Shown here one piece after another: positions 990-63,619 of a DNA stretch of 64,000 bases; the stretch's first letter is position 1, and each line of letters opens with the position of its first letter. This DNA is from Planctomycetota bacterium (GTDB taxonomy: Bacteria; Planctomycetota; Planctomycetia; Pirellulales; Lacipirellulaceae), in the NCBI GenBank assembly GCA_024278955.1, contig JAJRSE010000051.1, positions 1 to 64,000 on the forward strand, written 5' to 3'. Position numbers and translations under genes: made by a program. The notes beneath the pieces are model-generated. The model was not told the origin of the DNA, did not search any database, and worked only from the letters and a program-made list of their open reading frames with translations.

Positions 990-1140
990 GGGGCTGTCAG
1001 GAATATTGTGTCAGCTAGCAGGAGAGGAATTGTGAGTCGAGAGTGACTGATTTTCTAGCAACTCGCAACTCACGACTCGCGACCCGTTGCCTGATTTGTT
1101 CGTTTTTTTGCTAGCTGACACAAAAGTCTTTACAGGCCCC
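990..1140. repeat. MITE-like element: ~31-nt imperfect terminal inverted repeats enclosing a heptad-periodic hairpin
   Basis: GGGGCTGTCAGGAATATTGTGTCAGCTAGCA (990-1020) against the reverse complement of 1110-1140, GGGGCCTGTAAAGACTTTTGTGTCAGCTAGCA. Confidence 0.6.
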
Positions 1141-7868: not shown

Positions 7869-8024
7869 TGTGGGGGGAGGCGAGGGGTTAGGGGGTGGGA
7901 GGTCAGTCTCGTGAGGGCGACGAACTCTGCCTTGCCTGCCCCTTCCCCATTTCGCTTGCCAAACGAAGCAGCTAAAATAACCCCCCGACCTCTCACCTCC
8001 GACCTCTCACCTCTCCCTAGACAA

Positions 8025-53767: not shown

Positions 53768-53854
53768 TTTTGAGTCGTTGGTAGTTAGTATTTAGTCGTC
53801 AGGCAGAGAGTCAATTACTAACGACTAACTACTTAATGCCTAACGCCCTCTTTA

Positions 53855-55231
53855 CTAAAAGTTCAAAAAGTATTCAGGAATAGTAATCAGGTACTTCAGG
53901 TTAAAGACCCAGCGAAGCACCATTTTGATCGGCAGCGAGGCCATGAACAGCAGCAGGTTGGTCATCACCATAAAGCGGACGAAACCCATTCGCTGGTAGA
54001 AACTGCGGAACACGGTCAGCGCCATAATCGGCGGCAAGACAATGAAATAGCCCAGCACCAAGACGATGCCTAGCCACTCGCGGTAAATGATGTAGCCAAT
54101 CTGTGTCAAGGTACTACTCCCGGCTGCAGCTACCGGCGGGCTCATGCCCAGCAGGTCTTTCCACCAGAGATCCGAGAGATAGACATTGATTAAGGCTTCG
54201 ACTTTATGCGCATCCCAATGTTCGTAGGGGCCAAAAAAGTTCCAGTTCGGGCCGCGCAACAGGGTGCCAAGCACAATCAGTGTGATCCACATTTCCAGAA
54301 AGCCAAACTGAAAAACCGTATAGCTAAATGGTCGTTCCTTGATCGTGTAGTAGCCGTTGCCCTTCTTGTTGAAGTCTAAGTAGGGGATTGCCATCAAGCC
54401 GGCGACAATCATGCTTGGAAGCACCACGCCCGCCATCCACGGATCGTAATAGACGAGCATCTCTTGGAGACCCAAGAAGTACCAAGGGGCTTTGGAGGGG
54501 TTCGGGGTCTTTGCCTGATTGGCAGCCTCTTCGAGCGGTGCCGGCAAGGCAATTGCCCAAAAGATGAGGAATGCCATCAGCGCGATCATGCAGATCAACT
54601 CGATGTAAACCAAGTCGGGCCAGACCAGCACTTTTTCGTCGTCCAGCTTCTCCAGCGGAGGCTCGCCACGGGCGATACGATCGTCGTTTTCAACTGCTCG
54701 AGCGGTGCCTAGCCAAGTGAAGAAGGCTAGCAGAAATACGAGCATCACAATGGGCACATTGTCTGGCTTGGCAACGATTTCATAAAAATCGCTGTCGGTC
54801 ATCGAGAGGCCTAAAAACAGCCACATCAGATTCCAGATGGTCCAGGCAACCACTGGCTTCACGAAGAAACTTCGGAAAAGGTATAGCAACACCAACATCG
54901 CTGTGGTGCCCAAGCTGTAGACAACCGGACCAGTGCCTTGGTTGATTGCGTCTCGCAGCCCCTCAGGCAACGCGAGCATCGACACCCAACCACTTCCGGC
55001 AATAGCGCCGAGGATCGCAAACATGGTCGCTAGCAAAAGCCAACCTGCTGAGTTGGTAATAGCGACCTTACCGAGACCAGGCACAGGCAAGCTGAACCAA
55101 GTTTTTAGCTGTCCCGATCGCCACAAATAGAGGGCGGCCAAGCCATTCATCAGCGCCAGCGCAAGGTAGTAGGGCCCCAAAAAGGAGGCAACCATGCTAA
55201 AAAATTGGCCGTCTGTCAGTCCGTGGGTCAT
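53855..55231 (-). CDS. Cytochrome b, C-terminal (subunit IV-like) part of bc complex
   Basis: 'NPSKAPWYFLGLQEMLVYYDPWMAGVVLPSMIVAGLMAIPYLD' typical of cytochrome b C-terminal domain; multiple additional TM helices. Confidence 0.88.
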   Translation of the reverse strand: MTHGLTDGQFFSMVASFLGPYYLALALMNGLAALYLWRSGQLKTWFSLPVPGLGKVAITNSAGWLLLATMFAILGAIAGSGWVSMLALPEGLRDAINQGTGPVVYSLGTTAMLVLLYLFRSFFVKPVVAWTIWNLMWLFLGLSMTDSDFYEIVAKPDNVPIVMLVFLLAFFTWLGTARAVENDDRIARGEPPLEKLDDEKVLVWPDLVYIELICMIALMAFLIFWAIALPAPLEEAANQAKTPNPSKAPWYFLGLQEMLVYYDPWMAGVVLPSMIVAGLMAIPYLDFNKKGNGYYTIKERPFSYTVFQFGFLEMWITLIVLGTLLRGPNWNFFGPYEHWDAHKVEALINVYLSDLWWKDLLGMSPPVAAAGSSTLTQIGYIIYREWLGIVLVLGYFIVLPPIMALTVFRSFYQRMGFVRFMVMTNLLLFMASLPIKMVLRWVFNLKYLITIPEYFLNF

Positions 55232-55339
55232 AGGAGAGAGATCAGGGGTCAGGGGTCGGAGATCAGGGGATAGGATTTCAGTGGCAAAGTAGCCAGGGAA
55301 AGTCTGATCCCTGACCTCTAGGCACTGGCCTCTCCTTCA

Positions 55340-56116
55340 CTACAGCGGTCCGCTGATGCCGCCGTCCTTTCTTACCCGCCAAAAGTGGATCGCTAACAAT
55401 AGCGCCACTCCTAACGGAATTGCGATGCAATGCAAAATATAAAATCGATTCAATGTCTCTTCACCTACCTCGCGCGCACCTAAGAGCGCAAAGCGGGCAT
55501 CCGAGGCGTTGGTAATCATGTCGACGCCGCCAAGAGTCAGCAGCTGCTGACCTGGGCCTTCATGGCCAATCACGGGAGTGGCGCGAGCCATATTTGAACC
55601 CACGGTAATTGCCCAAACGGCCAATTGATCCCATGGTAACAAGTAGCCGGTAAACGAAAGCAGCAAGGTCAGCAGAAGCAAAAACACTCCCACGACCCAG
55701 TTGAATTCTCGTGGCGGCTTGTAGCTACCGGTAAGAAACACGCGGTACATATGCAGCCAGACGGTGATTACCATCGCATGGGCACCCCAGCGGTGGATCT
55801 CGCGCAGTATTCCTAAGGAATGGACGTCTCGGAGCATCTGAATATCGGTATAGGCCCATTCAACCGTTGGTCGATAGTAAAACATCAACAGCACGCCGGT
55901 TACGGTTTCAACCAAAAACAGAAAAAAGGTAACCCCACCCATGCACCAAGTGTAGGAAAGGGCAATGCCTTGCTTCTTGACCGAGACCGGATGCAGATGC
56001 AAGAAAAAGTTGGTCAACACGACCACAATACGATTACGGCGATCGACCGGCATAGGATGACGGAAGATACTTTTCCAAATCTGTGATTCGCGGATTATGT
56101 CGCCTAAGCCTGGCAT
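55340..56116 (-). CDS. Cytochrome b, N-terminal (b6-like) subunit
   Basis: '[87 protein letters not shown]'. Confidence 0.95.
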
Positions 56117-57769: not shown

Positions 57770-59056
57770 ATGAAGGTACTGGTTATAGGCAGTGGTGGAC
57801 GTGAACATGCGCTGGCCTGGAAGATTGGGCAGAGTAGCCGCGTCGACCGAATTTTTGTCGCCCCCGGCAACGCGGGCACCGCCTCTGAGCAGGACGCTTC
57901 GCTAGAAAATGTCGACATCGCGGATAACGACATCCCACGACTCCTCGAATTTGCCAAGCAAAACGAGATTGGCCTAGTCGTTGTAGGCCCCGAAGCTCCG
58001 CTAGCTGCCGGAGCGGTAGACGCATTCTCGGAATCTGGCATTCGAGCCTTCGGCCCAAGCGCGCGGGCTGCTGAGCTCGAGGCCAGCAAAATCTTTTGCA
58101 AAAACCTGCTTCGACACGCCGACATTGCCTCCGCCGAGTTCCATACCTTTCGAGACGCTGCGGGCGCCGAGCTGTTTCTGACCTCGCGAGACGACGTGCC
58201 GGTTGTGGTCAAGGCCGACGGACTCGCCGCCGGCAAGGGAGTAATCGTCTGCGACAACCGCGAGGAAGCCCTTGCAGCGGTCGACCGAATCGCTGGGTCA
58301 AAAGAATTCGGTGATGCCGGAAATCAGCTGATCATCGAAGAACGCCTGGTGGGGCAAGAAGCCAGCGTTCTCGCAATCACCGATGGTCGCACCATATTGA
58401 CCATGCCCGCCGCCCAAGACCACAAGCCGGCCCTTGATGGTGACCGGGGCCCTAATACTGGCGGCATGGGGGCCTATAGCCCGACGCCGATCGTCACCCA
58501 GGAGATTATGAATCTGGTCGAGGAAAGGATTCTGGTTCCTACGGTTCACCAGATGAAGCGGTCTCGACGTCCTTTCCGCGGCATCCTCTACGCCGGGCTG
58601 ATGATCACGAAGCACGGAGTCAAGGTTCTTGAATACAACGTCCGCTTTGGCGATCCCGAATGTCAACCGCTGATGATGCGATTGCAAAGCGATCTGGTCG
58701 ACGTACTCGAAGCGACCATTGATGGTCGCCTCGACGAAGTCGAACCGATGCAATGGGACCCTCGACCTTCCGTCTGTGTTGTGATGGCCAGTGAAGGTTA
58801 TCCCGGCTCGTACGAAAAAGGACGTCCTATCCGCGGATTGAAGGAAGCGGCCCTGGTTCCCGGTGTCAAAGTTTTTCACGCCGGCACCGCGATCCAAGAA
58901 GGCCAAACGGTCAACAACGGCGGTCGTGTTCTTGGCGTCACCGCCCTTGGCGACACGATCTCGGCAGCCAAATTGCAGGCGTACACTGCGGTCAAATGTA
59001 TTCGCTGGGAAGGCGCCTGGTGCCGTAAGGACATCTCGGATAAAGCACTACGTTAG
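57770..59056 (+). CDS. purD: Phosphoribosylamine--glycine ligase
   Basis: 'MKVLVIGSGGREHALAWKIGQS', 'VVGPEAPLAAGAVDAF', 'PVVVKADGLAAGKGVIVCD', 'NTGGMGAYSPTPIV', 'EYNVRFGDPECQPLMMRL'. Confidence 0.97.
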   Translation: MKVLVIGSGGREHALAWKIGQSSRVDRIFVAPGNAGTASEQDASLENVDIADNDIPRLLEFAKQNEIGLVVVGPEAPLAAGAVDAFSESGIRAFGPSARAAELEASKIFCKNLLRHADIASAEFHTFRDAAGAELFLTSRDDVPVVVKADGLAAGKGVIVCDNREEALAAVDRIAGSKEFGDAGNQLIIEERLVGQEASVLAITDGRTILTMPAAQDHKPALDGDRGPNTGGMGAYSPTPIVTQEIMNLVEERILVPTVHQMKRSRRPFRGILYAGLMITKHGVKVLEYNVRFGDPECQPLMMRLQSDLVDVLEATIDGRLDEVEPMQWDPRPSVCVVMASEGYPGSYEKGRPIRGLKEAALVPGVKVFHAGTAIQEGQTVNNGGRVLGVTALGDTISAAKLQAYTAVKCIRWEGAWCRKDISDKALR

Positions 59057-59115
59057 GGGATGTAAGATGTGGGATGTTTGATTGTTGATGTGGGAGAGAA
59101 GCTTGCCCGCAAAGC

Positions 59116-59213
59116 CCTCACATCAACAATCAACAATCAACAATCAAACATCCCACATCAACAATCAAACATCCCACATCCCACATCCCACATCAAACAT
59201 CCCACATCTCATA
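59116..59213. repeat. Heptanucleotide tandem array (14 units) forming one arm of a heptad hairpin
   Basis: cctcaca|tcaacaa|tcaacaa|tcaacaa|tcaaaca|tcccaca|tcaacaa|tcaaaca|tcccaca|tcccaca|tcccaca|tcaaaca|tcccaca|tctcata; complementary arm at 59058-59095. Confidence 0.95.
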
Positions 59214-59243: not shown

Positions 59244-60035
59244 ATGTCTAGCCCAACCGCGCAATCCGCAAAACCGGTCCCAACGGAACCGCGACATGCC
59301 TGGCCGATGCGGCTTTGGCTGGCGATGCCCGACTGGGTATTTCGCCTAGCAGGTGCGTCTTTCTTTTTTTCGTACGTTGTTTTGCGGGCCGAAAAATACT
59401 GGCTTCACGGTTTTTGGCAGCAGGGGCCTTTCTACAATTTCGCCAACGGCGATTCGGTTCACATGCCTTGGGTGCCGCTGCTGATTGATCTCACCTTTGT
59501 GCTGATCGCCCTCAGTTTTTGTTTTCGATTGCCACCGCGCCGGCGGACGGACAACGGTTGGATCGTCTCTTACACGTTGCTAACAGCCTATGCTCCGCTG
59601 CTCCCGCTTTGGCTTTTGCCGCTGCTCGGACTTGTGAGCGAGGACACCCAAAACGCTTACGGCCAGTTTTTGTATCGAAATCCTCTTACCTGGAACGAAG
59701 TGGCGATTGGGGCGACCTTGCTGACGATAGGCAATGCGATCGTCCTCTGGGGATACGCGGCCCTGAACCGCAGCTTTAGCATTATCCCCGAACCTCGACG
59801 ACTGAAAACCACAGGCCCCTACCGGTTTGTTCGCCATCCGGTTTACTTCGGCCAGTTTTTCTCGCTGGCTGGGTTTTGGCTTTTTTTCGCACAACTTCAT
59901 GTGGTTTGGATCGTTTTCTACTGCGTCTGTGTTGCGATGCAGCTCTATCGATCGAAGCTCGAAGATCGAATCCTCGCCGACGCATTCGGCGACGAGTGCC
60001 GAGAATGGCAAAAACGAACTTTCTGGTTTGTTTAA
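59244..60035 (+). CDS. Isoprenylcysteine carboxylmethyltransferase-like membrane protein
   Basis: 'EPRRLKTTGPYRFVRHPVYFGQFFSLAGFWLFF' and 'YRSKLEDRILADAFGDECREW' typical of ICMT/PEMT-like methyltransferases. Confidence 0.8.
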   Translation: MSSPTAQSAKPVPTEPRHAWPMRLWLAMPDWVFRLAGASFFFSYVVLRAEKYWLHGFWQQGPFYNFANGDSVHMPWVPLLIDLTFVLIALSFCFRLPPRRRTDNGWIVSYTLLTAYAPLLPLWLLPLLGLVSEDTQNAYGQFLYRNPLTWNEVAIGATLLTIGNAIVLWGYAALNRSFSIIPEPRRLKTTGPYRFVRHPVYFGQFFSLAGFWLFFAQLHVVWIVFYCVCVAMQLYRSKLEDRILADAFGDECREWQKRTFWFV

Positions 60036-63550: not shown

Positions 63551-63619
63551 GAGGGATGTTTGATGTAGGATGTTCGATTGCTGATCTGAATCTCCCGCGT
63601 ATCCAACATCCAACATCTC

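Follow-up and report, generated by a model that had tools for sequence, protein, structure and literature searches.

The window, i.e. the whole 64 kb stretch of DNA that was analysed, is part of contig 70 of a 4.6 Mb draft planctomycete genome. Between purD and the methyltransferase gene that follows it on the same strand lies a hairpin whose two arms are built of 7-nt units, and heptad repeats are found in several other gaps of the window (Table 1). G010 denotes a congener, whose median orthologue identity to the present genome is 62%.

Table 1. Genes and heptad features of the window (word: consensus of the 7-nt unit)
Feature	Position	Strand	Basis or remark
ACTCGCR heptad tract	1054..1087	+	tract scan
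G-rich tract and GACCTCT heptads sharing one gap	7871..8017	+	tract scan (7987-8017); heptads also present in the G010 counterpart of this gap
Heptad hairpin, word TTAGTNN	53768..53854	-	gap downstream of the cytochrome b C-terminal-domain gene (53855-55231); orthologous gap matched
Heptad hairpin, word GGTCAGN	55232..55339	-	between the cytochrome b N-terminal-domain (55340-56116) and C-terminal-domain (53855-55231) genes
purD (phosphoribosylamine-glycine ligase), upstream gene of the hairpin	57776..59056	+	Pfam GARS_N, GARS_A, GARS_C; stop codon 59054-59056
Left G-rich arm, 36 nt	59057..59092	+	reverse complement of the family head plus ~4 heptads; head on the minus strand at 59092
Loop, 26 nt	59093..59118	+	no similarity to the loops of other copies found
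Right C-rich arm: head CACATCAACAATC, 13 heptads in all	59119..59213	+	heptad reading, head alignment
Methyltransferase gene (PEMT/ICMT type), downstream neighbour of the hairpin	59244..60035	+	Pfam PEMT 3e-11, ICMT 5e-8
Second copy of the ATC-head hairpin family	63551..63619	+	fills the gap from an FtsX/MacB-type permease gene to the next ATG

The earlier note had described a heptanucleotide hairpin in the purD gap, and sequence and coordinates agree with that description, save that the right arm has 13 full units and not 14, and that the arms are separated by a 26-nt loop and not by a spacer of about 20 nt. At positions 59119-59212 the right arm reads CAC followed by 13 heptads in register (ATCAACA four times, ATCAAAC three times, ATCCCAC five times and ATCTCAT once); the left arm, at 59057-59092, is the reverse complement of CACATC-AACAATC-AAACATC-CCACATC-TTACATC-CC. 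Lag-7 identity in the right arm is 0.76, versus 0.25 at lag 6 and 0.31 at lag 8 (0.25-0.38 over lags 4-6 and 8-13), and the highest lag-7 identity reached in 10,000 Markov shuffles of this arm is 0.60. The predicted RNA fold has an energy of -68.1 kcal/mol (z -12.3), and none of the shuffles folds as well. The hairpin has no Rfam match over the gathering threshold, all sub-threshold matches being to microRNA-precursor models, and a terminator-like site (a GC-rich stem followed by a T run) was sought at the hairpin and not found.

Period 7 was also thought to run through the window as a whole, and it does: besides the purD gap it is seen in the ACTCGCR and GACCTCT tracts, in a tract at 55237-55264 inside the GGTCAGN gap, in the TTAGTNN spacer and in the second family copy. 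The expectation that intergenic period 7 would exceed both shuffled DNA and the neighbouring periods was likewise borne out, since tracts outside gene bodies number 35 for period 7, 3 for period 6 and 2 for period 8 in 860 kb of the present genome, and 67, 6 and 3, respectively, in 1.04 Mb of G010. Gene bodies were taken from simple open reading frame calls, and gene starts are therefore approximate. Intergenic shuffles that preserve trinucleotide context contain almost no period-7 tracts. These shuffles, together with the counts outside gene bodies, rule out chance or a coding artefact as the source of the heptads. Other relatives, sampled at 100-200 kb each, have 0 to 4 period-7 tracts per 100 kb, and there are none in the 50 kb of E. 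coli K-12 that were scanned. The densest stretch seen is L082 1649-7183 (JAGQOW010000061.1), with seven heptad tracts in 8 kb and the word GCTTTCC/GGAAAGC.

A separate period-9 class (CGCCAAGNN, CACAGAGNN and their complements) forms inverted arrays in gaps, sometimes around heptad arrays. It is present in G010 (C3:141382-143455, C12:91676-91819, C12:105194-105340 and others) and in the present genome (C91:3093 and C91:77005).

The word of the purD hairpin is not private to its locus. The earlier note had pointed to a different choice of units at each locus; words do differ between loci, but that of the purD gap belongs to a dispersed family. Its loop-proximal head, CACATCAACAATCAAACATC, occurs 57 times within two mismatches in the 4.6 Mb genome, versus no occurrence of the reversed control. 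In related genomes the head is found 30 times in G011, 21 in G008, 11 in G007, nine each in G001 and G005, and five in G012; the same search detected none in G010, G006, G004, G009 or G013. The order of units is largely common to 33 copies aligned from 860 kb of the present genome, and is roughly CACATCAACAATCAAACATCCCACATCAAACATCCCC. Head-to-head pairs account for 22 of 36 heads, and several single heads retain remnants of a partner. The loops of most copies are unrelated, with partial sharing in a few (C36:62578, 63900 and 249892), and a mobile element with a conserved interior was rejected on this ground. The purD-gap copy (59058-59213) stands out from its family mainly by its long right arm, which exceeds that of other copies through repeats of 7 and 21 nt and includes a perfect 21-nt duplication detected by TRF.

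Word families differ from species to species. G010 has a head of its own, TCTGGCTCTYNGCTCT of the GCTCT family, in 53 copies within one mismatch, versus one in the present genome, as well as GACCTCY, GCTAANN and other words. The heptad words found include ATCAAAC, GACCTCY, GCTCTNN, GCTAANN and ACTCRCR, and none equals GGGGAYT of Nostoc or GGGAATC of Xanthomonas. Some words recur across distant lineages of the class: GACCTCNGACCTCNGACCTC, three tandem units of GACCTCN, is present in 15 of 298 genomes of the class, patchily across unrelated families. The exact 20-mer ATCAACAATCAAACATCCCA, in a search of a contig collection, was found only in eight planctomycete MAG stretches.

Different words may also occupy the same gap. 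In G010 the purD gap holds a heptad hairpin of the GCTCTNN family (fold z -4.5), and the two cytochrome b gaps have hairpins in both species, with TTAGTNN in the present genome versus CTAGNNN in G010, and GGTCAGN versus GCGAGGN. Among 47 orthologous gaps, heptads are present in both species in five (2.4 expected), in one species only in three and seven, and in neither in 32. This excess of shared gaps (Fisher p 0.018; length-stratified permutation p 0.03) is based on small numbers, and heptads may simply be tolerated better in some gaps than in others. The spacers of the two genomes are too diverged for an empty-site comparison.

The hairpins have a fixed polarity. Close inverted head pairs, taken as those within 200 bp and counted from the tables of head matches, have their G-rich arm first and their C-rich arm second in 47 of 47 cases (27/27 of the ATC and 20/20 of the GCTCT family); since the two arms are inverted copies, the G-rich arm also comes first on the opposite strand. 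The same polarity appears at gene edges. On the coding strand, tracts that lie no more than 25 nt from a gene 3' end are G-rich by 25 to 5, and 40 of the 50 that lie equally close to a 5' end are C-rich (40:10). GC skew in heptad spacers is +0.43 after stops and -0.34 before starts, versus -0.01 and -0.05 in other spacers; thus the polarity is limited to heptad spacers. A depletion of tracts at convergent gene ends was present at one threshold and vanished at another, and was discarded. Among the few starts preceded by heptads, a Shine-Dalgarno-like motif is present in 3/21 and 3/24, versus about 28% of other starts. At C36:65273 and C36:66460 of the present genome, on the minus strand, heptad tails appear by eye to continue straight into prepilin-like leader codons (LTLIELLVVI-type).

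Arms within one hairpin match far better than arms swapped across loci (mean 10.3 versus 1.8). When the order of units in one arm is permuted, however, the match is not reduced (z 0.45, all families), and the arms therefore share a word and are not exact copies. In the ATC family, two arms from one locus resemble each other no more than arms taken from separate loci do (p 0.85). Thus, of the proposal that the purD hairpin consists of complementary arms of 7-nt units, the pairing stands, but in the ATC family it is a matter of a common word and not of a unit-by-unit fit. The idea of one arm as an exact inverted duplicate of the other was rejected on these two results. In the GCTCT family the loop-proximal heptads do match between arms (p 0.001, nine hairpins, one of several tests). 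Adjacent units are more alike than permuted units (z 6.1), which is a signature of slippage, and decay of tract ends could contribute. Variation restricted to certain positions inside the units was also considered; a mean of 4.2 invariant phases versus 3.7 expected is unconvincing.

We consider it fairly probable that the purD-gap hairpin belongs to an extragenic hairpin repeat which has dispersed over the genome and whose arms were later changed by 7-nt slippage. This is favoured by the 57 heads versus none for the reversed control, the head-to-head pairing, the uniform polarity of close pairs and its restriction to heptad spacers, the likeness of neighbouring units (z 6.1), the perfect 21-nt duplication and the RNA fold (z -12.3). 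The basic unit would be two inverted copies of about 35 nt (CACATCAACAATCAAACATCCCACATCAAACATCCCC, with its internal 7-nt periodicity), placed head to head around an unconserved loop, and the hairpin as a whole is probably what spreads. The conserved heads call for copying between loci, and slippage in place is insufficient on its own because head and unit order are largely common to 33 loci. Slippage in 7-nt steps after arrival, which is suggested by the varying tails and the likeness of neighbouring units, would lengthen or shorten the arms and is the presumed cause of their differences in length; here it would have brought the right arm to 13 units. It should be pointed out that the unrelated loops of most copies are unlike a simple transposon and count against the dispersed-repeat explanation, as do the three Y1 transposase genes of G010 with no heptad tract within 3.8 kb.

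As to a role in the cell, the hairpin may, with less weight, be an intercistronic RNA stem-loop of a purD-methyltransferase transcript, if the orientation of the two genes is taken to mean co-transcription. Perhaps it shields the upstream message or damps the downstream one, and it would be tolerated because co-directional transcription is not blocked. A 5' arm richer in purines and a 3' arm richer in pyrimidines, whichever strand is read, would make it easier for the RNA to fold behind the polymerase, owing to the stability of the RNA-DNA hybrid. By analogy with the STRR hairpins of cyanobacteria, for which such a role has been suggested (PMC2670836), stem-loops next to purD and the cytochrome b genes could serve to stabilise or fine-tune messages.

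A rival reading is that the hairpin is a selected RNA element, a functional intercistronic stem-loop or terminator whose structure is kept while the word drifts, hence the other words in the same G010 gaps. The five gaps with heptads in both species (2.4 expected, p 0.02-0.03), the hairpins of both species in the purD and the two cytochrome b gaps, and, in the GCTCT family, the changes that occur in pairs in the heptad next to the loop (p 0.001) all speak for it. Yet numbers are small, ATC-family arms match no better within than across loci (p 0.85), no terminator-like site was found at the purD hairpin, and there is no enrichment at convergent gene ends; selection of this kind is unlikely, if the least so of the alternatives. 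The shared gaps can also be looked at as conserved slots in which heptad hairpins, purine-first and pyrimidine-second, keep the gap filled whatever the word, so that period and polarity, and not sequence, would be what some process or selection acts on, and the words would be exchanged wholesale from one species to another. This appears rather unlikely.

A purely local origin, i.e. a chance short hairpin at each locus with arms grown by 7-nt slippage and no dispersal, would account for the likeness of neighbouring units (z 6.1) and for arms that, across all families, have a common word but not a common unit order; moreover, the heptamer excess of bacteria has been ascribed to polymerase slippage (PMC4692102). 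However, a 20-nt head with fixed unit order is found at dozens of loci per species and in several congeners, and the GCTCT head behaves likewise. Local origin is largely refuted for these two conserved-head families and could still hold for rare words; as a general explanation it is improbable.

The dispersed inverted doublets, extragenic and with a variable loop, resemble REPINs, i.e. REP doublets mobilised by a RAYT transposase, and Y1 transposases are present in 14 of 14 congeneric genomes, although presence everywhere is uninformative. In the present genome Y1 transposase genes lie, for example, at C33:98245, C141:38447 and C70:225118. The head CACATCAACAATCAAACATC, as read from its sequence, has no REP palindrome or GTAG/CGTC tag, however, no heptad tract lies within 3.8 kb of three Y1 transposase genes examined in G010, and the present genome holds separate REPIN-like palindromes; that the heptad hairpins are REPINs proper is very improbable. 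These palindromes have the form GGGTGCCACTGCTGGCTTGCCCAGCAGTG, a conserved 20-nt loop and CACTGCTGGACAAGCCAGCAGTGGCACCC, lie at C70:83002-83079, C70:185903-185980 and C36:10681, 158439, 198710 and 220532, and appear to be an ordinary REPIN-like family distinct from the heptads. A further alternative is a binding array, in which an RNA- or DNA-binding protein would recognise each heptad as one of its sites, much as has been put forward for the TAACTGA repeats that precede start codons in Beggiatoaceae (PMC4679880). The C-rich heptads that often adjoin start codons (40/50 within 25 nt of a 5' end) suggest it, but it is very improbable, as a single binder is hard to reconcile with the numerous unrelated words of each genome and with the exchange of words from one species to another.

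An excess of heptamers in the intergenic DNA of bacteria has been on record since 2007 or earlier, with no mechanism put to the test, and the GGGAATC arrays of Xanthomonas and GGGGAYT arrays of Nostoc are intergenic, with conserved and variable positions in the unit (PMC4692102). Many arrays of the Xanthomonas type are convergent pairs able to form stem-loops, and they often occupy the same gene gap in two species with altered length and sequence; the G-rich-first polarity reported for Xanthomonas heptamers is that of the planctomycete hairpins (PMC4692102). That work, however, describes one G-quadruplex-type word per genome studied, whereas the planctomycete genomes have several words, mostly without G runs, and the word is swapped in the gap of a congener.

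The STRR repeats of cyanobacteria share the 7-bp period, intergenic location and capacity to form hairpins, as in the hupS-hupL gap, and transcript stabilisation or translation coupling has been suggested for them (PMC2670836). They differ in sequence and phylum, and the text consulted mentions neither a conserved head nor a rule of polarity nor an exchange of words. The earlier note had seen hairpin arms as the difference from STRR; this distinction falls, since hairpins made of 7-bp repeats have been described for STRR (PMC2670836), as have inverted heptamer pairs in Xanthomonas (PMC4692102). TAACTGA repeats of Beggiatoaceae are intergenic direct heptamer repeats, often just upstream of start codons, but consist of a single invariant word with almost no inverted arrangement (PMC4679880), whereas planctomycete words are many and paired inversely. 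REPINs, also dispersed extragenic inverted doublets that form a hairpin with a less conserved spacer (PMC3116915), are the nearest model for dispersal; unlike them, the planctomycete arms have no REP palindrome, are periodic in heptads, presumably grow in steps of seven and show no RAYT linkage at the three G010 Y1 genes.

Hairpin-forming heptamer arrays are thus already known from cyanobacteria and Xanthomonas. No description of heptad hairpins in Planctomycetota was found in the open-licence literature that was searched, which is not proof of absence. What is new is the presence of many words per genome, species-specific word families, the exchange of one word for another in a conserved gap, and occurrence in Planctomycetota. 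The gaps with heptads are specific places at which strains can be compared and RNA mapped. Many species of one genus carry different words, at times in one and the same gap, while period, polarity and the layout of the hairpin are common to them, and the genus therefore allows features fixed by mechanism (7 nt, purine-to-pyrimidine polarity and inverted pairing) to be told from the one that is free, the word.
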